Part shown: positions 24,580 through 64,000 of the stretch, piece after piece
How positions within the stretch are numbered: the stretch's first letter is position 1
Layout: every line of letters begins with the position of its first letter
From: Morchella semilibera
Lineage: Eukaryota; Ascomycota; Pezizomycetes; Pezizales; Morchellaceae
Reading direction: 5' to 3'
Length of the DNA: 64,000 nt
NCBI GenBank assembly: GCA_009192285.1
Contig: WBVU01000012.1
Location: 1,949,726 to 2,013,725 of the forward strand
Made by a program: the position numbers and the translations under genes
The notes under the pieces: generated by a model
The model's database searches: none
The model's input: the letters and a program-made list of their open reading frames with translations, nothing else
What the model was told of the DNA's origin: nothing

Positions 24580-24979
24580 TTTCATGGATATGTTAGGATT
24601 GGAAGACTGGAGCGATTGGCAGGGTTGGGATTATTGTAAGTTAGGAGGCGGGGTTGAGTCAGAGTAGGTTCTATGAGTTTCTGTTACGCGAGAATGTGAG
24701 TCATGGTTGGGGTTATGCGAAGATATGAGTCTGGCTTGGCTCTGGAATAACGGGTATATAAGGGAGGCAAGGGCGCCTACTCCTGTACTTTCTTTCTTTT
24801 CCTTTTCTCTTTACGCAACGTCTTCTGTATCTACAATATACTATAGTCTCTTTTCTCTACTAGTGACTATCGCTGATTTCCATACTTCTTCTTGATACTT
24901 TCCTCTCCTCTTGGGAAGTATCGCTGTCACTAGCCCGCACCCTGCGGAACGAAGCTACAACCCTAGCGCCCCCTTGAGA
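24580..24979 (+). repeat. 5' LTR of the chromovirus
   Basis: This 400-bp sequence is repeated at 30028-30428 with roughly a dozen differences, so the insertion is not brand new. It contains a TATA box (TATATAA, 24755-24761) followed about 55 bases on by a pyrimidine tract and ACGCAACGT (24813-24821), the likely transcript start. The termini are TTTCAT and TTGAGA rather than TG and CA. The boundaries were set by the flanking GAGTC duplication and the end of homology between the two LTRs. Confidence 0.8.
24755..24761 (+). promoter_or_regulatory. TATA box in the 5' LTR
   Basis: TATATAA lies in GGGTATATAAGGGAGGC and is conserved in the 3' LTR. It precedes the proposed transcript start at about 24813 by a distance normal for fungal promoters. 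Confidence 0.6.
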
Positions 24980-24981
24980 TT

Positions 24982-24990
24982 ACGTTGCGT
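24982..24990 (+). promoter_or_regulatory. Primer-binding site, probably self-priming
   Basis: ACGTTGCGT begins three bases after the 5' LTR. It is the exact complement of ACGCAACGT (24813-24821, repeated at 30261-30269), which lies where the mRNA should start. This layout is that of Tf1/sushi-type chromoviruses, which fold their own 5' end back as primer instead of using a tRNA. The match is 9 bases, so it is suggestive rather than proven. Confidence 0.55.
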
Positions 24991-25013
24991 CGTCATCCAC
25001 ACCGTGCACAACT

Positions 25014-26351
25014 ATGTCTATTCCTGGTCCTCCACCCCCTCCCACAGCCCGCATCCTAGATGGGGTCACCATCGATGGTAATTACCAAATTCCTCAAACC
25101 TTTGAAGAGTTTGACGCAGTCGAAGATAAACACTATCACTATGTACAACTCCTCGCTCTTGTGCGCGAAGGAGATCGATGGAAGGCAGAACGGGACGCTA
25201 GTCGGGCCCTACACCTTCAAACCAGACAAAAGTTGGCCGAAACGAGGGACCAACTGACCGCCTCCAACAACCATATCGACGCTCTGGAAAACCAGGTCCG
25301 AACCTTGGAATTCCAACTCGCTGCAGCTCGCGCACCACCATCACCACCACCACCACCACCACCCCAACCCCCATCAATAGTTCCTCCCCCACCCGCTAAT
25401 AATCCGCCCACAGCTTTTCGTTCGGAGAAATTCCCAGACCCGCCCAAGTTTAACGGGACCCGCAAGGAGCTATTCGGGTTCCTTAACCTTCTTCGTACCA
25501 AACTCAAGGTTAACCATGATAGGTTTCTGAACGAAGAAGCTAATGTCTTTTATGCAGTAAGTCGGTTGGAGGGAAAGGCTTTAGATCAGGTCATCCCAAT
25601 GGCCACCGGGGACGCTGCCCCATTTGCTTTTGTTGCTATCTTCGTCGCATTTTTGGAAGCATTTTTCGGAGACCCAGACCCTAGAGGCACAGCCCGAAGG
25701 GAGCTCCAAGATCTTCGCCAAGGCAAGGGAGACTTCGCAACTTACCTTACCCAATTTCTACGTATCATGGGCCAACCTGACTATAATGAGGAGGCCAAGA
25801 AGGACGCCCTGGAAACGGGACTCTCTGACGACCTTAAGGATGCCATGATCTACCAGGATACCACGGAGGAAGGCTTTGATGCATATGTCAGGAGACTTAT
25901 GACCATGGACAACAGGATTAGGACCAGGAAGGATGCCCACAAAACTACCCGGAATCCGATGGGACAGTTCACCTCCCAACCTGCTTCTCCCCATCCGTCG
26001 CATACGCCAGGAGGCCTGGCCCCCATGGATCTTTCTGCCCTGCAGGCTCGCCCCACTGTACGCCCCCCGCCCGAAGGGAGGTATACATTTGCCAACGGCC
26101 GCCGACATACTACAACTGCTGAAAAGAAATGGAGGATGGAGAATGGCCGTTGTGCCTACTGTGCCGCCCCCGACCATGTTTTCGCCAACTGTTACCAAGG
26201 CAATCGCCCACGTGCTCTCCCTCCAGGTATGAGAGGTGCCGCTCTATCTGCTCCCCCTGTTGCCCCTATTGAAGCTCCTATTTCTTCCTCTTCTTCTTCT
26301 TCTTTATCTACGGATGTTGTGTTGTTTTCTGGTGATTCGGGTTTTCAGTAG
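25014..26351 (+). CDS. gag: Chromovirus Gag polyprotein
   Basis: The 445-aa frame starts 35 bases after the 5' LTR and is uninterrupted. Residues about 40-105 form a charged coiled-coil-like stretch. A proline-rich linker (about 108-130) follows, then a Retrotrans_gag-type capsid region (about 140-290, with ARRELQDLRQGKGDFATYL). A single CCHC zinc knuckle, CAYCAAPDHVFANC (C-x2-C-x4-H-x4-C), lies near residue 382 and would bind RNA. The tail is serine-rich. Gag packages the element RNA into cytoplasmic particles. The frame stops about 90 bases before the pol start codon and is in a different phase, so Pol would need frameshifting, re-initiation or a lost overlap. Confidence 0.85.
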   Translation: MSIPGPPPPPTARILDGVTIDGNYQIPQTFEEFDAVEDKHYHYVQLLALVREGDRWKAERDASRALHLQTRQKLAETRDQLTASNNHIDALENQVRTLEFQLAAARAPPSPPPPPPPQPPSIVPPPPANNPPTAFRSEKFPDPPKFNGTRKELFGFLNLLRTKLKVNHDRFLNEEANVFYAVSRLEGKALDQVIPMATGDAAPFAFVAIFVAFLEAFFGDPDPRGTARRELQDLRQGKGDFATYLTQFLRIMGQPDYNEEAKKDALETGLSDDLKDAMIYQDTTEEGFDAYVRRLMTMDNRIRTRKDAHKTTRNPMGQFTSQPASPHPSHTPGGLAPMDLSALQARPTVRPPPEGRYTFANGRRHTTTAEKKWRMENGRCAYCAAPDHVFANCYQGNRPRALPPGMRGAALSAPPVAPIEAPISSSSSSSLSTDVVLFSGDSGFQ

Positions 26352-26440
26352 TCCCTGGCCAGTATTATGGCCCTCGCCAGGGACCTTCAAAGGAATTTTC
26401 TTTATCTGCGTTTTCTATTTCTGGTTTTTCGGTTTGGGTT

Positions 26441-29400
26441 ATGGCAGAGGAGGAATTAAATGGAGACCACTTAGTTGTAGCTTGTAACATTGCTCACAAT
26501 AAGAACTCTATTTCCACCTATGCTATAATTGATACTGGAGACTCGGGATTCGCATTTATTGATGAAACCTTTGTACGCCATCATCAACTTCCTCTTTTCC
26601 CCCTTAAAACTCCTCGTACTCTTGAGGTGATCGATGGAAGACCTATCGCATCCGGACAAATTACCTCAATATGTCGTGTACCTCTACTTATCGGCTTTCA
26701 TCAAGAACAAATTCCACTTTTCGTTACCAAGCTAGGGCAGTACCCCCTAGTTCTTGGTATTCCTCGGCTACAACATTACGATGCCACCCTAAAATTTAAG
26801 AGTAATACAGTGGCCTTCGATTCAGAGTTCTGTAAAAAGAACTGCAATTCTACCACTACCCCCGATGTTATTCCCGGCATTAGACCCCCAACTTATATGA
26901 TAGGCCCTGTTCCTTTTAGTCGCCTCGCCCGGCGTAAGCAACTCCAGATCTGCAGTATAACATTGTACGAGATTGAGAAGGCCCTTCAGGACGCCCCAAG
27001 GGATGGGTGGAAACAAAAGATCCCCGAATGCTATCACAATCGATTGAAAATGTTCGACGAAGCCTTTGCCCAGGATCTACCGCCTCGCCGCCCCTATAAT
27101 CATAAGATACCTCTGAAGGAAGGTAAGGAGCCTCCATTTGGTCCCCTCTATGGCATGTCCAGGGACGAGTTGTTGGCACTAAGGGACTATATTCGAGAGA
27201 ATCTCTCTAAAGGCTTTATCCGCGCCAGCTCGTCCCCGGCTGGGGCTCCAGTATTATTTGTGAAGAAAGCTGACGGGTCCCTTCGCCTCTGCGTTGATTA
27301 CCGAGGACTAAACGAGCTGATGGTCAAGAATCCATACCCATTACCCTTAATTCGGGAAACTTTGGACCATCTCTCCAAAGCCAAGTGGTATACTAAGTTG
27401 GACTTAAGACAGGGGTATAATCAAATTTGTATGGCCGAAGGGGAGGAGTGGAAGACAGCATTTAGGACCCGCTACGGTCACTTCGAATATACCGTGATGC
27501 CATTTGGGCTTACTAATGCCCCCGCTACCTTTCAACATTTTATCAATGATTGCCTCCGAGAACATTTGGATCAATTTTGCACCGCGTATTTGGACGAGAT
27601 CCTTATATATAGCGACTCCCTTGAGGATCACGAACAACAGGTCGAAATAATATTGGGAGTCTTCCAGGAGAACGGAATTTTGTTGAAGCCAGAAAAGTGC
27701 GAATTTCATACTCAAAGCACCACTTATCTAGGATTGATTATTGAACCCAATGGTATACGTATGGATCCGTACAAGGTATCGGCGGTACAAGAATGGACCA
27801 CCCCTAAGTCGGTCAAGGATGTGCAAGCCTTTCTGGGCTTTGCCAATTTTTATCGCCGCTTTATTTTCGGATTCTCAAAATTCGCCGCCCCCTTGACTAA
27901 ACTTACAAAAAAAAATGTTCCTTTCATATGGACATCGGAAGCAGAAATAGCATTTCAATCCTTGAAAGAGGCCTTTACCACCGCCCCTATCTTGATTCAT
28001 TTTGATCCCGAAAAGCCAATTACAGTGGAAACAGATGCGTCGGACTATGTTGCCGGTGGCATACTTTCTCAATATGATGAATAGGGGAAATTACACCCTG
28101 TGGCGTTCTTTTCTAAGAAACATACGCCAGCAGAATGTAATTACGAGATTTACGACAAAGAGTTATTGGCGATAATCAGATGTTTTGAGGAATGGAGGCC
28201 GGAGTTGGAAGGAGCTAAACATCCTATTGAGGTTATTTCTGATCACAAAAATCTCGAATACTTTATGTCCACCAAGCAACTCAGTAGGAGACAAGTACGA
28301 TGGGCCGAATATTTATCGCGATTTAATTTTATTATTAAATATAGGCCAGGAAGGCAGAGTGGGAAGCCGGATGCATTGACTAGGAGATCGGGAGATTTCC
28401 TTGAGGAAGGGGATGAAAGATTGTTGCACCAGAGTCAGACGGTTTTGAAGAAGGAAAATTTCGATCCTAAGCTAAGTTTGTTAGCGGGTTCTTTGGCAAA
28501 TGACCCCGCTGAAAAGAACGCCTCCCTACAGAAATTATTCGATGAAGGATACCTAGCTGACCCATTCCCACAAAAGATTCTGGATCTACGGCAGACAGAT
28601 ACAAAACACTGCAAGGAGATATCCCTAGCAGAATGTACCGAAGTAGACGGCCGCCTGCTCTATCGCGAAAGTTTTTATGTTCCCGACTATGCACCATTGA
28701 GGCTGGAGATTCTGAAACAATACCACGATGCTCCTTCGGCAGGACACCCTGGCAGAGAAAAAAACCTTTGAATTGGTTAGCAGGGATTATTATTGGCCAA
28801 ATATGCGTGACTATATCGGTCAATATGTTCGGAATTGCCATATTTGCCAGCGAAGCAAGCCAACTACACATGGGAAGTTAGGAGTACTTCGACCGCTACC
28901 TATACCAGAACAACACTGGAGAGAGATCTCTATGGATTTTGTTACGGGTCTACCAGAGAGTGAGGGGTATGATGCCATATTGGTGGTTGTGGATCGGTTA
29001 ACGAAGATGCGTCATCTCTTGCCCTGCAATACTACAGTTAATGCAGAAGATTTAGCCATTCTATATTTGCAATATGTTTGGAAATTGCATGGCCTGCCTA
29101 CGTATATTACGTCCGACAGGGGAACCCAATTTACTGCGAAGTTCTGGAAATCTCTTTGTAAGCAATTGAAAATCGAAGCCAGAATGTCAACAGCCTTTCA
29201 CCCGGAGACGGATGGTCAAACAGAGAGATTGAATGCGGTGATGGAGCAATACCTTCGAGGGTACGTATCATATCAATAGGACGATTGGGTTAAGTGGTTG
29301 CCAATGCCGGAATTTGCAGCAAATAATCAGGTGTCAGCCTCCATCAAAGCCACTCCGTTTTTTGCCAACTATGGCTATCACCTTCGATTTACGATGGACC

Positions 29401-30115
29401 TACGGAAATTAGAGAAAACTCCACCGAGCCTCGATGCTCACGACTTTGCAAGCAAGATGAAGGAATTGCACGACTACCTACGAACTCAACTCAGGACCGC
29501 TCAAGATCAACAAGAGAAGTCAGTTAATACGAAACGTCTCCCGCCCCACGTTATGAAGTTGGCGATATGGTGTTTGTATCAGCAAAGAATATTCGAACTT
29601 CGCGGAATTCCAGGAAGCTTGATTGGAAAAGATTGGGACCCTTTCCCGTTCAGGAAGTCGTCTCACCCTACGCTTATCGATTAAATCTTCCTGGCTCGAT
29701 GAGGATGTATCCTGTCTTCCATGTTTCTCTGTTGAACCTTGCCGCCGTCGATCCTGTACCGGGACAGAGACAACCACCACCTCCACCTATTGTTGTTGAT
29801 CAGGAGGAGGAATATGAGGTCGAAGAAGTTTTGGACTCAAGGCATCATAGGAAGCAGGGACTTCAGTACTATGTGAAGTGGACAGGGTATGCTGACCCTA
29901 CGTGGGAGCCCGCCGATTATCATCAACAGACTGCCGCCGTTGATAAGTTTCATATACGCTATCCTGCTAAACCAGGACCAGGGGATATCAAGGCTCGCAG
30001 GAGCTCGCGTTTGAAGTGGGGGGCTACTTTCATGGATATGTTAGGATCGGAAGACTGGAGCGATTGGCAGGGTTGGGATTATTGTAAGTTAGGAGGCGGG
30101 GTTGAGTCAGAGTAG
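26441..30115 (+). pseudogene. pol: Chromovirus Pol (PR-RT-RH-INT-chromodomain), inactivated
   Basis: Domains in order: aspartic protease (IIDTGDSG near residue 30), reverse transcriptase (LRLCVDYRGLN, YGHFEYTVMPFGLTNAPATF), RNase H (TDASDYVAGGIL onward), HHCC zinc finger (NCHICQ), integrase core with its three acidic residues in [17 protein letters not shown] and TDGQTERLN, then a C-terminal chromodomain (YYVKWTGYADPTWEP). Damage: in-frame TAG at 28082-28084 and 29277-29279 (the second within YQ*DDW, a likely CAG to TAG change); a frameshift in the seven-A run at 28758-28764; another frameshift near 29549. The RT active-site box reads YLDE instead of YxDD (codon 27596-27598), which alone should abolish polymerisation. 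The last codons run into the 3' LTR. The chromodomain marks it as a chromovirus, whose family members target heterochromatin. Confidence 0.9.
30013..30024 (+). promoter_or_regulatory. Polypurine tract of the chromovirus
   Basis: GAAGTGGGGGGC lies three bases before the 3' LTR and would prime plus-strand DNA synthesis. It overlaps codons of the pol reading frame. Confidence 0.6.
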
Positions 30116-42655: not shown

Positions 42656-42738
42656 TTAGACGAGCTTAGACGACTTTTAGACGAGCTTAGACGACTTTTA
42701 GACGAGCTTAGACGACTTTTAGACGAGCTTAGACGAGC
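42656..42738 (+). repeat. 21-bp tandem repeat, about four units
   Basis: The unit TTAGACGAGCTTAGACGACT plus one T is repeated nearly perfectly. Each unit is itself a doublet of TTAGACGA, so the true ancestral unit may be 10-11 bp. Confidence 0.8.
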
Positions 42739-53159: not shown

Positions 53160-54118
53160 CCCTGCCATCATTTTATCCGCTGCTAAAAACAAATATATTT
53201 GAGGAATTATTTGCCAACACGGCACTAGTATAAATGATTTACAGGATTTCGAAATATCAGAAGATATACTTTAAGCTAATGTATTAAATATAGAGTATGC
53301 TCAATCCACTCTAGAAAAAGTACCAGTGCCAAATGAAAGTAAAGAATTGCCTCAGGTCGAGACCGCAACTAAGAATGGTAGTGACAGTCAGTAAACTTGA
53401 TACAAATAAATAAATGAGATGTAAACAAAGCTAATAAGAATTTGATGGTTTCTTCTGTACCTTCAGGATAGCATATACACTTGTATAATTACTTTGACTG
53501 ACATAAGTAGTACCAATACCCCTATGACTATGAATCTTTTGCATTAGCCCATTGAATTTTCTTCCTAATTCCTCTAGCCTGCTCCATGCTCCTCTTTCCT
53601 GTGACAAAGTAACCTGATGCAAAGTAGAAGATGACAATGATGACCCAAAAGAGCTCGAGAAGTACAACTAACATAACGAGGACGCCGACAAAGACAGGAA
53701 CGACAACAAGCAGGCACAAGCACAGGCACTGGCAAAGACAAAGGCAGAAGCAAGGGCAAGAAGCACAGAGCAGAGAAAGTGAGGACTAGATGGACCTCAA
53801 CGAGAACGATGAGAAGTACCATCAGTTTCCTCTATGAGGACAAAGTTTTGGGTGAGGAGAACTGTGGGTTGAGAATAGGAGTATATTCCTATGTACGGAG
53901 ATAACAAGAAGACGAGACGAAGAGAGAAAAAGAAAGAACTAAAGAAAACATCCATCTCCTCTATTTAACATCTATCCCCCGGCAGTCCAGTATGACTTAC
54001 ATATCCGTTCATGGAAACCCATAGAAACCACTCCTTGTATTCCTCCCCACAATCTCTTCTAATTATATTACAAATCCATCACGCTATAGAATCTCATGGA
54101 ACCTAATGACAACACCTC
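53160..54118 (-). mobile_element. Decayed retroelement relic (inverted partner of 23.6-24.1 kb)
   Basis: 53590-54118, reversed, matches 23567-24095 over both the LTR-like and the charged coding part (KDRNDNKQAQAQALAKTKAE on the plus strand). Just upstream, 53205-53400 has another protein-like stretch (INDLQDFEISEDIL, then a stop, then YAQSTLEKVPVPNESKELPQ). All frames are broken. Confidence 0.5.
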
Positions 54119-54474
54119 CATCTTGTCGCATCTCTCCCTCGCTTAACATTCCTTCATTAGTTACATCAGCCCTTCGACGACCGAACCCTGGGCGCCAACG
54201 CCAAGATACAGGGACATCAGTACTATCATTGTTGTACAACATCAAAATTAAGGGAGTCACCCATTCTTATCGCTATCACAATCACTAAATATCATTTGTG
54301 ACTGATGATGACTGCAAGTGGATGGGATAGATAATTGACGATTGGGATTGGTACTGGCGCTTGGAAATGATTCCTAGAACTGATAATTAGCTGGGAACTA
54401 GGATTGTTAACTGGCACCTGGAAATGACTTTGCTGCATTTCCAGGGGTGGGAATTGGGGCGCATTGTGCCAGGA

Positions 54475-54890
54475 ACTAACATTGAGTGATGGGGAATAAA
54501 TTTCAATGTATTTTGAATTTGGGTTGTATGACAGTTGAGATAGATTTAGAAATTTAAATATGGGACTGTACGATTGGTTGTATTCAGCTTGGATTTGTCA
54601 AGTACTCCTGTGCGGTAGAAAATGATGTTATGCAAAGGCTATGATTGCACTGTACGGTTGAATTTATGTTTTACTCCATTTATTAACTCGTACGGCGAGA
54701 AAAGTACATTTGGGTAAATTTGCTTTTCCATATACGGCAGACTTTGAGTATCGTAGACATCAGCAACACCATCGTGGCGGTCTTTATTACCATTGTGGCA
54801 ATCAGTGGATCTATCGCTGCCTAAAACTACGGTTCAGGTACCACCTAACCCGAACTCCACACCACAAAAAAGCCCATAAATGTTTGGGTT
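54475..54890 (-). repeat. Inverted fragment of the 42-bp phased array
   Basis: The reverse complement matches 59684-60075 closely, through words such as GCCACGATGGTGTTGCT, GCCGTACGAGTTA and ACATAAATTCAACCGTACAG. GTAC-type cores fall at 54483, 54525, 54568, 54610, 54652, 54690 and 54732, so the 42-bp spacing is kept apart from one small deletion. Confidence 0.8.
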
Positions 54891-54910
54891 TGACAGAGGT
54901 TCGGGGGGGG

Positions 54911-55038
54911 GTCTCCTCCCTTGCATGGGTTTCTAGTTGTGGGTTGTTCGATCCTCCCTGTATGGGTGGTTGATCGGGGCTCCTGGGATTCCCCTTAGCT
55001 GGTGTAGATAATGAATAAACTTGATCACTAACCCTAAC
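54911..55038 (+). repeat. Dispersed repeat, copy 2 (partner 43920-44048)
   Basis: Same orientation and order of blocks as the partner; see that entry. About 1 kb downstream a second repeat (55989-56199) also parallels the partner region, so both may belong to one larger element. Confidence 0.7.
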
Positions 55039-55427
55039 TAATTCAACCCACCAGAAAGCCCTAAAATGTACGGGTGGCTATGGGAGAGTGGAGAAAACCG
55101 TGCTAGCGACTGTGGCGCGGCGGACGCCAGCGTTTGGTCTCTACCTTCGGCGTTGATAGCGTGGGATCTGCTCACAGCAGGCTGCTCGACGGAACAAGCA
55201 TACCGACCGGATCAGAATAATAATGACCACTGTAACCAGACAACCTCTCCTACTCGGAGCAGATACGTAGTACCGGACAATGCAAGTTTCGTCTCTGGGC
55301 TTTTTTTGCAGTAGTTCTCGCGTAGGACGCGCACCCAACCTTTATTGTCCGGTACTTTTTACCTGCCCCGAGTACAGCGAGATGATCATGAAACCCATAT
55401 CATTGCTGGAAGGTTACATGATTTCAA

Positions 55428-59683: not shown

Positions 59684-62558
59684 GGATTTATAGGCTTTTT
59701 TGTGGTGTGGGGTTCGGGTTAGTTGGCACCAAACCGTAGTTTTAGGCGGCGATATATCCACTGACTGCCACGATGGTGTTGCTAATGCCTACGATACTCA
59801 AAGTTTGCCGTACAGGGAGAAGCAAATTTATCCAAATGTACTTTTTTCGCCGTACGAGTTAGTTAATAAATGGAGTAAAACATAAATTCAACCGTACAGC
59901 GCAATCATAGCCTTTGCATAAAATCATTTTCTACCGCACAGCAGCACTTCACAAATCCAAGCTTAATACAACCAACCGTACAGTTCCATCTCTAAATTTC
60001 CAAATCTACCCCAACCGTCATACAATCCAATTTCATAATACATTAAAATTCGTTCTCCATCGCTCAATGTTACTTTCATATTCACTACGGAGCACTACCT
60101 GTTATACAGTATCTCTTTACAATTCCGAAAATTAAGATTCTTCCTGTACAGCTGAAACAAGATATATCCAGAACTGCAAACATAATCATATACCATAAAG
60201 TACTATTTCTTCAATTCTCATCATGAATTGTACAGCATTAGATTACCATCTTTCTCTTTGGTCTCACTATCGCCCAGTACCAACTTTGGAGCCCCACTTT
60301 GTTAGTTTCGGTCACACAGCATACCCATCTCCTCTCTATGCCCATGCGCCCACAGCCAAAACTACGAGTTTCTCATGAACCAGCACATATCGGCCACAAG
60401 AGCTTGTCCTGCCATTCCCAATTAGTAGTGCTCCTGCAGTACGGTGCATTTCGGCATATGACTCAACTAGTTAATCTCCAGTACGATAGTAAAGACTAAG
60501 TTATAATATATTTTTAATATCGTACAGCGATACTTTTTCATCATTTATCTTTCATCTATGCTGTATAGCTCTTGTATCAGCTTCCTCTCTAGGTTTTGTT
60601 TATTGTCTAACCAAAGTTTTATTTCTGTTTTTAGAACATACTATCGTACGGGATATACTGCTTAATTTTTCATGCTCCTCTTGTACTGTACAACACAGTT
60701 TTTGGATTTTAGATAATAGTCATTCTGCCCCCTAGGACGTTTCCCGGCTATCAGCCCCAACTTAAATTATCGTATGGCACATTTCTGCATGTTTTCCCGA
60801 ATATATTTCTGCCGTATACCCCTTTTTCTCAGTGTGGAGACCTTATCTATATGTCTGTTAATCTTTGAATTCAATATCAACTTTTGATCTATCCCGCCGT
60901 ATGGAGCATAAAGCTCAATTTCTTTCTCTAATTTTGCTTGCTCTCAGCTTCACCCTCCTTATGACTTAGATGTACAATTTTGTCGCCCGATTGAAATTCT
61001 ATATTATTCACAACTTTGAGCCCTACTGCACGACAAATGTTTGCAAATACCTCCATCCGCTCTGTACCATTCAATATTATTTTTATACCTGTCTAATGGC
61101 ATTGATCAACCAGCCCATGTACCTCATTCAGCCTGCCTATCGTAAGGGTATCAATACCTCCAAACAAATCTCCCATTCTGCCGTACAATACTAATTCTAG
61201 CACTTGATCAACTTGTACCCCTGCCGTACGTGCATTATTTCCTCACAATCTCTCTCCTGATTTCCTATACGACGGGATCTTTTTATATAATCCAAGCCTC
61301 GCCCCTGCCGTACGTGTCATAGATCTCTATACTTCTTTTTCCTCTTTTTTATCCGATAACAACATTACATTTCTCAAGTCTAAACAATATCGTTTAACAT
61401 TAAATCTCTAAATCCTATCCCCTCTTATCTGTTGTACGACGTCATTTCCTCATATTTCAACACCCCTTACCTCTGCCACATAATGTGATTTCTTCAGATT
61501 ACCTTGGTCCTTATCCTCACCGTACGTGGCTCAAATCTCCATTCCCCTTTTATTTTTCTCTTATATGACGGTGTCCCTCACATTTCGTCAACCCTTCATA
61601 ATGCCGTACGAGCACCATTTCTTCAAATTCATTTCTAGTCTTTCACCTTATTACGCTATCTCCTCAATTTCCTCAACTCTCAACATTGTCGTACGAGCAT
61701 TATTCCTTCAGGTTCTCTCTTCTTCTTTCGCCTTACGACGCTATCTCTTCACGCTTCTTCAGGCCTCGATCATGTTACAGAGGTATTCTATTTCTAATCC
61801 TCTCCCCCTCTCTGTTGTACGGTGCAATTTTTCACATCTTACCAATTCTCATCAGCGTCGTACAGGCAGAATCTCTTTTATGTTTTTCCTTCTCTTTCAT
61901 CTTGCGACGCTTCCTCCTCACATTTCTCATTTCTCAACATTGTCGTACGGGCATTTTCCCTTCAGGTTCTCTCCTTGTCTTTCGCCTTACGACGACATCT
62001 CCTAACATTACCTCAAACCCCTACCACATCGTACGAGGATTTTATTTCTAATCCCTTCACCCCCTTCTCTGTTGTACGATCCAATCCTTCACAACTTGCC
62101 AACTCTCAACAATACCGTAGGAGTAGGATCTCTTTTATAATTTCTCCTCCACTTTCGTCTTACGACACTATCTTCTCACATTTCCTCAGACTTTCACAAT
62201 GCCGTACGAGTCTTATTTCTTTGAGTTCTTCCTCCCCCTTTCGCATTCCGACGCTATTTTCTCACCCTAATCTATCCCGTACAAGCATTATTTTTATAAA
62301 TTCCTACCTCCTCTTTCACCTTACGACGCTATCTACTCACATTTCTTCAACCCTCAATAATGCTGTACAGGTATTAAATTTCTAATCCTCTTCCTTCTAC
62401 TCTTCTGTACAATGCAATTTTTCGCATTTCCGCAAACCTCGTCCATGCCGCACGACTCAATCTCCTCAAATTTCCCCAATACTCATATCTGTCGTACGGG
62501 CGTTATTTTCTCAAGTCCCCCTCTACTGTTTTGCCTTACGGTATCATCTCCTCACATT

Positions 62559-62695
62559 CATCAGCAAGACTTCATTTGTCTCCTGATGTCTCCTGAGCCT
62601 CAGGAGACTCAAAAAATATCCAGGAGTCTCAGGAGACTCTCAGGAGACTTGGGAGACTGCTGGGAGACTCCAGTCACAAGTTGAGTTTGCTGATG
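62559..62695 (+). mobile_element. 137-bp MITE with CAGGAGACT repeats, copy 2
   Basis: The ends CATCAGCAAGACTTCATT and GTTTGCTGATG are inverted repeats, and the inside is tandem CTCAGGAGA variants. It sits inside the phased array. Removing its 137 bases restores the 42-bp spacing between the cores at 62536 and 62718. Confidence 0.75.
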
Positions 62696-63025
62696 TTATC
62701 CATTCTTTATTCATGTCATATGATGCTATTTCTCCACATCATTAAACCTGGCCCCTGCCGTGCAACCGTCATCTTACATATTTCCTTTCTTTCTGTTCTG
62801 CTGTACGACGCTTGCTCCCCAGATTCCCTTTTTCCCCCATTCTGCCGTACGATATGAGATTTTGCAAGATCCTTTTCACTGTTCTTCTTGTACGACACCT
62901 TTTTTCCTACTTAACCTTTCTTATACTTTGCCGTGCGATCTGGTTTTTTTTAGATCTGTACCCCATTCATCGCGTCGTATGGCACTGTTTACTTGAACTT
63001 TTTTTTTTTCGCGTATCATCGCCCG

Positions 63026-63111
63026 GCACCATTCTATCAAACTTGCGTATCGGGTGCAACCACCGGCCGGCACCACTCTATCAAACTTGCGCTTCGGGTG
63101 CAACCACAAGA
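63026..63111 (+). repeat. 44-bp tandem duplication ending the phased array
   Basis: CGGCACCATTCTATCAAACT then TGCGTATCGGGTGCAACCAC is followed by a second copy with two or three changes. Its GCAC cores (63026 and 63070) keep the array spacing, so these are the last two units, recently duplicated. Confidence 0.75.
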
Positions 63112-63195: not shown

Positions 63196-63904
63196 CTAAT
63201 CATCGACAGGAGTATCTTCCCGCGAAATAGCGATAATTTTGTCTACCATATCTTCAGGAAGCCACTGAAGCATGAGTGATTTATAGCTAATCTTAGCGAG
63301 GTTTTTACAGTCGACTAGGACCTGTGCATGTTGCGACACGGGGCAAATCCTGATCTCGTCCATTCGCGGGTACGGTCGAACTCCTTTGATCCGGGAACAG
63401 ATACCCACGCACTCAAGTAGGCGGCCAGTAATCTTTTTGTGTTCTAAATAAATCAATTTTTGAGTTAGACGAAGCTGGGTCTAGGACATGTGTGCGTGTG
63501 CGGCACTTACCAATGACTTTAATTATTTCCTGAGAGCTAGAGACCTGGCTCGAATGCCTATCGACGTCCTGCGGGTCGCTGTACATCAAGCACCTCATGA
63601 CAAACAAGAAATACCATTCGTCTTTAGGTGTGTTGACCTTAGCACCGGGTTGAAGAATCTTTTGTTCTGGTATGTTCAAATCAAACCCGAGCGCGACAGG
63701 GGGAGGAGCATGCTGAGACAGCACATAGCCAATCAGAAGAAATAGATTATGCTGGGGATTATTGAGTTGGACAAAACCAGCAGAGCGCCGAAAGTAACTG
63801 GCAATCATTCCTGCTGACCCTCCACGGGCATGATTGGCTGATTTTTTGTACCTCGCAAGAAAACTTGTCTTACCGGTCAGGTACTCTGATGGGAACTCTT
63901 CAAG
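63196..63904 (-). CDS. Unknown gene, 5' end cut off by the telomere
   Basis: On the minus strand, exon A (63904 down to 63511) is open from the edge of the telomeric repeats and reads LEEFPSEYLTGKTSFLARYK and onward, then VQLNNPQHNLFLLIGYVL and EWYFLFVMRCLMY. It ends at donor GTAAGTG. The 67-bp intron 63510-63444 ends TATTTAG. Exon B (63443 down to 63196) continues in phase with HKKITGRLLECVGIC and ends REDTPVDD and stop. At least 218 residues are encoded. An internal ATG at 63808 exists, but the open frame runs past it to the array, so the gene more likely lost its start. The family is not recognised; no catalytic motif is evident. Confidence 0.55.
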
Positions 63905-64000
63905 GTTAGTTAGGGTTAGTTAGGGTTAGTTAGGGTTAGTTAGGGTGTTAGTTAGGGTTAGTTAGGGTTAGTTAGGGTTAGTTAGGGTTAGTTAGGGTTA
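63905..64000 (+). repeat. Telomeric array of TTAGTTAGGG
   Basis: About nine and a half tandem copies of the 10-mer TTAGTTAGGG run to the window edge, with one variant (GGGTGTTAG near 63945-63951). The G-rich strand points outwards, as at a right chromosome end. The canonical ascomycete repeat is TTAGGG; here each TTAGGG is preceded by an extra TTAG. Confidence 0.85.

Follow-up and report, generated by a model that had tools for sequence, protein, structure and literature searches.

What is the array of GTAC motifs, spaced about 42 bp apart, that lies close to a chromosome end of the morel Morchella semilibera? The window, i.e., the whole stretch of DNA analysed here, comprises the final 64 kb of scaffold C11, with the telomere at its end: (TTAGTTAGGG)n, built of a 10-bp unit, occupies 63904..64000 on the plus strand, where the scaffold terminates. 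The assembly contains 56,756,124 bases in 23 scaffolds (C1-C23), the longest of 7,341,407 bases. We read 20 left end loci and the right ends of C11, C12 and C13, plus a few internal stretches; search matches alone covered the right ends of C1-C10 and C14-C20 and, for C21-C23, both ends. The reading that we put forward, and to which we give an even chance, is that the GTAC array forms the body of a chromosome-end element, T1, a terminally added, non-autonomous retroelement bearing a protein-docking lattice.

The regularity itself is beyond chance. An earlier note on this DNA had described a GTAC-type core recurring at 41-44-bp steps for more than 3 kb, and the counts bear this out: the stretch 59684-63111 holds 40 exact GTAC, whereas 300 dinucleotide-preserving shuffles averaged 8.7 and never had more than 17, and 10 GTAC pairs are 41-43 bp apart, where the shuffles averaged 0.05 and gave one at most. 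Between about 59.8 and 62.99 kb the GTAC steps are mostly 41-44 bp, and base autocorrelation over 59684-63111 peaks at lags 42, 85 and 84. Within 59804-62552, identity is 0.332 at lag 42 and 0.336 at lag 85, whereas the best of 300 local shuffles reached 0.315 across lags 30-59. A shuffled control with the same dinucleotide content, which the note had proposed as a check, thus did not equal the observed 42-bp periodicity. Among the individual core positions that it had named, 59810, 59852, 59894, 59978, 60146 and 60230 carry an exact GTAC; 59936 is GCAC and 60104 is ATAC.

A spacing-aware chain placed 73 core slots of the form RYYGTAYRR on the plus strand, from 59804 to about 62988 (59804..62988), with a mean step of 41.96 bp and G-poor spacers (7% G); this regularity is partly imposed, because the steps were constrained to 38-47 bp with 42.5 favoured. 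An unconstrained scan found 33 strong cores where 0.17 were expected by chance, and 26 of the 32 distances between adjacent strong cores fell within 2.5 bp of a multiple of 42.4 (expected, 3.8). That scan is slightly circular, its core model having been trained on the chained sites; the count of exact GTAC is free of this circularity. The motif YYGTACRR occurs 26 times in the 3,335 bp of the array and 11 times in the preceding 59,685 bp. Distal to about 61.5 kb an 85-bp dimer in part takes the place of the single unit. Tandem Repeats Finder, at a minimum score of 50, gave no row for the C11 lattice. Chance or base composition as the cause of the lattice is ruled out by the shuffles together with the core and spacer statistics given below. 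A coding repeat was also rejected: frames on the C/T-rich strand are open, yet steps of 41, 42, 43 and 44 bp mix, so that no reading frame is kept along the array.

The lattice is shorter than had been supposed. It stops near 62988 and does not extend to 63111; at its distal edge, outside the lattice, the tandem repeat listing has a separate duplication of a 44-bp unit in about two copies (63023..63107). Nested within the lattice is a dispersed, MITE-like repeat of about 146 bp (62552..62697) with at least 68 other matching places in the genome, at 76-99% identity among the 40 of 734 candidates that were scored. Between lattice and telomere lies an orphan gene fragment on the minus strand (63196..63903; open frame 63413-63919, another frame stopping at 63196), with one other genome copy found, on C20. 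As an ORF of the element itself this fragment was rejected: only two copies of it turned up in the genome, and the protein search gave no homologue at E 0.01.

Conservation along the unit is very uneven. At C11, the nine core columns hold 0.51-1.24 bits, while 17 of the 24 spacer columns stay below the 99% null bound of 0.107 and the remainder do not exceed 0.21 bits. In the first 13 slots, where all steps are 42 in the chain, a little spacer similarity persists (identity 0.345 vs 0.294 shuffled). The left end of C7 carries a second GTAC lattice, in which 18 slots were chained across 735 bp, placed behind a related terminus and followed by about 450 bp of weaker sequence before the telomere; its core is YYGTACRR, and all 11 steps between strong cores are in phase. 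Despite the common core, this lattice and the C11 array show no cross-match. Scaffold C14 terminates in a 99% copy of part of the C7 sequence. Information is concentrated in about nine core columns at both C11 and C7, and similarity across the entire unit, as expected of a satellite, was found at neither.

The near-identical right ends of C12 and C13 bear a different lattice. The first 39 bp of the C11 element recur there without a change, about 4.4 kb from the scaffold ends, and are followed by a lattice with a step of about 43 bp (44 chained slots at C12, mean step 42.21) and the core GTCG(C/G)CTGATGGC, which is not a clean palindrome. Past the shared 39 bp, nothing is alignable between the C11 and C12 bodies at E 0.001, and YYGTACRR is absent from the C12/C13 T1 body. 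Phase is kept in 31 of the 32 strong-core steps at C12. The spacers are also similar to one another (0.46-0.49 vs 0.29-0.33 shuffled in two blocks, 0.376 vs 0.342 in a third). Spacing that is kept while the spacers diverge, as the earlier note had it, therefore describes C11 and C7 and not C12. Its conserved palindromic core likewise holds as GTAC at C11 and C7 and is not universal, because the C12/C13 member has another core at about 43 bp. A member at C6 has a 24-bp unit in place of the one of about 42 bp. We count the C12 spacer similarity and non-palindromic core, the slight similarity left in the first C11 slots, the 24-bp unit at C6 and the lack of YYGTACRR at C12 as points against our reading.

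These same data bear on whether the array could simply be an old subtelomeric minisatellite, its 42-bp unit spread in register by slippage or unequal exchange and then decayed, with the cores surviving as exchange hot spots or by mutation bias and no protein lattice involved. Such exchange is displayed by in-phase block duplications, of 85 bp at C11 and 127-129 bp at C12, and in-phase duplication of blocks (85, 129 bp) can preserve spacing without selection; the similarity retained in the C12 spacers and the predominance of transitions among the changes in the C11 core, as expected of deamination decay, also favour this explanation. Against it, slots 7-18 at C7 have spacers at the shuffled level (identity 0.28 vs 0.287), yet their steps are 42 in nine cases out of ten and 41 in the other, and a core of about 9 bp is not expected under uniform decay. 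A simple neutral indel model, with rates assumed by us and the observed steps taken from the chain, gave P ≤0.027 for 12 of 12 unchanged steps at ≥0.3 substitutions per site. We regard the minisatellite as rather unlikely; a lattice under selection is favoured over plain satellite decay because core and spacing are conserved at C11 and C7 while the spacers are near random.

A further difficulty for the minisatellite, which leaves it unexplained, is a terminus shared between ends. The C11 array begins at a precise point (59689, TATAGGCTTTTTTGTGGTGTGGGGTTCGGG) that is common to a family of sequences, here named T elements; the earlier note recognized the lattice correctly and missed this membership. 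The proximal terminus of T1 (ATTTATAGGC...GGGTTAG, 59686..59724, plus strand) is the 39-bp stretch that C12 and C13 repeat exactly at their right ends. Across the family the proximal terminus is fixed over about 35-40 bp, as TATA..GG.TTT.TGGTGGGGTG..TTCGGGTTAG, and the distal ends vary. In the 23 scanned end loci we found 23 termini of six types, confined to 11 loci, with the near-identical pairs C9/C10 and C12/C13 counted separately. Seven rows at four edits were set aside as chance or as belonging to the LINE: two on the minus strand, at C8L and C15L, and five inside the LINE, at C15L, C16L, C17L, C12R and C13R. From a general terminus pattern, which gave 25 matches vs 11 in a reversed control and missed most types through a one-base offset, no inference was drawn.

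The termini are strongly polar: 22 of the 23 are oriented towards the telomere, and the exception lies within an inverted block of the window. Directly before each of the 23 stands AT or ATT, which the search patterns did not include. Nine junctions were tested, and in the seven with a known uninterrupted parent the AT was the parent's own (7/7); AT at the junctions could nevertheless belong to the T element itself. All seven of these junctions lie in non-telomeric sequence, unlike the telomere-repeat junctions of the MoTeR/FoTeR type. Where this was checked, parental sequence distal to the join was missing, in three cases: the LINE at C7, T2 at C12/C13 and T3 at C4.

Genome-wide matches show the same combination of fixed proximal end and variable distal truncation that characterizes telomere-specific non-LTR retrotransposons. 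For the T2 type, all 18 non-self matches start at query positions 20-24 and end at 83-255 (255 being the query end); 13 of them (14 of 19 including the query) are 7 kb or less from a scaffold end, and every one of these is directed at it. For the C7 query, 18 of 23 non-self matches start at 4-6 and end at 73-221, the query's own T3 piece ending at about 210. Orientation at chromosome ends is thus nearly uniform (22/23 termini, 14/14 near-end T2 matches with the query counted in, 8/9 near-end matches of the C7 query). Judged from sequence, T termini at ends are AT-preceded and, with one exception, of one polarity; wherever we checked, the parent lacks its distal part, and beyond the T copy come telomere repeats or a further element. 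Addition to open chromosome ends is the simplest reading of this pattern and, we think, probably the right one.

The inverted block that holds the exception is made up as follows. A second T1 terminus with the first ~390 bp of the GTAC lattice lies inverted at 54474..54881 (minus strand), about 4.8 kb from the main array, at 84% identity overall and 89-91% in ungapped pieces. Adjoining it at 54882..55065, also on the minus strand, are a T3 terminus stub, one telomere repeat and the 3′ end of a telomeric LINE; this stub, at 55065, is too short for the terminus patterns and is not among the 23. Along the minus strand from 55065 to 54474 one meets first the T3 stub, then the telomere repeat and the LINE 3′ end, and last the T1 terminus with its lattice; the block is a relic chromosome end, now inverted within the chromosome. 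A dispersed repeat of 617 bp (53600..54216), with at least 102 other matching places, interrupts the inverted T1 body. Among the 40 of its 1,031 candidate matches that were scored, identity is 66-91%, and several places are closely spaced in opposite orientation. Farther inside the window, a long run of open frames (24978-30115) looks by eye, from its translation, like a Ty3/Gypsy-type gag-pol, and a perfect 21-bp tandem repeat stands in 3.9 copies at 42656-42736.

Transposons with subterminal repeats have a precise terminus followed by repeated short motifs, and T1 shares this layout. The array could in principle be the terminal region of such a DNA transposon, whose transposase would bind the repeats; the inverted partner 4.8 kb away in the window and the existence of some copies inside chromosomes are in keeping with this. 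Yet the sole opposite-facing terminus in the 23 end loci belongs to the inverted block with its own telomere repeat and LINE end, and the copies are variable distally, are stacked one way and are joined where the distal part of the parent has been lost. Besides that inverted relic, no second inverted terminus occurs in the scanned end loci, where all T copies examined are cut short distally. A DNA transposon with inverted ends was therefore rejected, as the scanned loci show no partner ends, and a transposon origin of any such kind is very improbable.

The telomeric LINE itself recurs in the same end loci (L034, L035, L033, L013:7561-9200), where copies at three other ends are 95-96% identical and the one at C7 is 85% identical, and is joined directly to telomere repeats, with TTAGGGTTAG abutting TGATCAAG. 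It contains RVT_1 pieces at E 1.3e-7 (above the curated cut-off) and 1.1e-5 (below it). Pieces of reverse transcriptase were seen only in this separate LINE; none were seen in the T bodies examined, nor any other ORF, in copies that are all cut short distally, and this counts against our reading. Just proximal to the LINE at the C7 left end (L025:2500-3600) is about 1 kb of a 30-bp, G/T-rich minisatellite.

Not all T copies are found at ends. Five T2 matches lie far from them (C1:1410011, C20:3979481, C6:1705775 and a C21/C22 pair near 348 kb). For the C7 query, a scaffold end is at most 7 kb away from nine of the 23 non-self matches, of which eight face outward and one, C8:673010, inward; the other 14 are farther away than 7 kb or unplaced (C23, without scaffold length). 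Some 58 kb away from scaffold ends, two termini of T1 type (C19:57648 and C4:2673160) face inward, and the former showed no clear lattice on reading. The many T3-type copies far from scaffold ends count against end addition. Telomere repeat tracts also occur inside long scaffolds, e.g., at C1:1462163, C1:4005225 and C2:4063791, and those of C1 and C2 may mark places where chromosome ends were joined, or be true interstitial telomeres. An internal telomere tract lies 1.7 kb from the far T copy C2:4065584, so that former ends or wrong joins may account for some of the inner copies.

How would such elements reach an open end? In the mechanism that we propose, an element RNA whose 3′ end is the terminus would be reverse-transcribed, the chromosome 3′ end serving as primer through AT/UA microhomology; priming of this kind is plausible, with a likelihood just below even. 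The T elements look non-autonomous because their bodies differ behind one common terminus, and these bodies would be passengers mobilised by a reverse transcriptase from elsewhere. No oligo(A) was found in the T elements, and a conserved RNA fold of the terminus was rejected, as folding predicted not a single base pair in nine termini.

The lattice would dock a core-binding protein, either on the DNA of the chromosome end or on the element RNA. We infer this role, like the protein binding and nucleosome phasing suggested in the earlier note, from the pattern of the sequence: a docking array is indicated because the core spacing of 42-43 bp, or four helical turns, is kept and the spacers mostly are not. 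It is a tentative reading that falls a little short of an even chance. Helical phasing is inseparable from the 42-bp step itself, and a covarying dyad in the core was rejected: with 153 pairs examined per array, the highest z was 3.22, for two neighbouring positions. In sopC of plasmid F and other phased ParB-type arrays, 43-bp repeats surround a short conserved core in helical phase; sopC serves bacterial plasmid partition, and its likeness to the T lattice would be one of working alike, with no common descent implied.

Of the two substrates, what speaks for DNA is the rigid step of four turns, for which flexible RNA has no need. Two observations count against a DNA lattice, namely the non-palindromic C12 core and the strand bias, which is strong at C11 and C12 (GC skew -0.38 and -0.34) and weak at C7 (-0.06, almost none). 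If the lattice instead acted in RNA, it would form the long 3′ untranslated region of the element transcript, and a Gag-like protein bound to its cores would bring the transcript to chromosome ends. The orientation, which places the lattice beside the presumed RNA 3′ end, would suit this, as would the strand asymmetry at C11 and C12 and the long strand-biased 3′ UTRs reported for HeT-A/TART/TAHRE in the account of PMC5537684. The near absence of skew at C7 does not, nor does the lack of any Rfam match in window 54-64 kb, in locus L013 or in L025 (the C7 left end). Furthermore, the G-poor strand runs towards the telomere in T elements and towards the centromere in the Drosophila telomeric retrotransposons as described in PMC5537684; this opposite polarity speaks against an RNA lattice and against our own explanation alike. 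We consider the RNA lattice unlikely.

Comparison with known systems places the T elements near several of them, as a proven member of none. HeT-A, TART and TAHRE undergo 5′ truncation and join to open ends without target repeats. According to the part of PMC5537684 devoted to them, they form one-way stacks at Drosophila chromosome ends and have a long, strand-biased non-coding part; T elements, too, are stacked in one direction at ends and have a non-coding, strand-biased body. In contrast, Morchella encodes a telomerase RNA-binding domain (C11:243869, E 4e-48), the T elements were found without ORF or oligo(A), and the phased core lattice that they carry is not mentioned for HeT-A/TART/TAHRE in that part of PMC5537684. 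The fungal elements MoTeR1/MoTeR2 and FoTeR are described, in the sections of PMC7367193 and PMC12857005 concerned, as telomere-proximal, with the 5′ end towards the chromosome end and with truncated copies; their non-coding parts hold tandem repeats, the largest array of MoTeR1 being near its 3′ end, and MoTeR carries TTCGGG-type repeats. MoTeR1 and MoTeR2 share their ends and differ in body, as T elements have a common terminus and differing bodies (PMC7367193, PMC12857005). Going by these descriptions, however, MoTeR and FoTeR join telomere repeats, and MoTeR1 and FoTeR encode a reverse transcriptase, whereas T elements join at AT in non-telomeric DNA and no reverse transcriptase was seen in them; by place and orientation, the MoTeR-like member of these loci is the separate telomeric LINE. 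Endonuclease-lacking Penelope-like elements (Athena, Terminons) transpose to ends and are 5′ truncated, as outlined in PMC5537684; the reverse transcriptase and the short telomere repeats at the junction that Athena and Terminons possess were not seen in T elements. The T family resembles HeT-A in placement; its membership is unproven, as the reverse transcriptase and the RNA end are postulated, part of its matches lie away from scaffold ends, and the telomere-repeat junctions of MoTeR/FoTeR did not occur at the 23 termini. In the open-licence literature searched we found no earlier description of it, and it appears to be an undescribed chromosome-end retroelement-like sequence.

Beyond the single elements, a broader picture can be drawn, which we offer as speculative and improbable as a whole: a telomerase-bearing fungus would use a second, endonuclease-free class of retroelement to heal eroded ends at AT microhomologies, and the body of these elements would be a helically phased lattice with swappable core and fixed four-turn spacing, a protein-nucleating platform for the capped end. 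Terminal retrotransposition that replaces telomerase is best known from insects that have lost telomerase. If the picture is true, end healing by retroelement and by telomerase could be observed side by side in a culturable morel that encodes telomerase, and the lattice, with its two different cores, lends itself well to testing whether spacing can be under selection while sequence is not.
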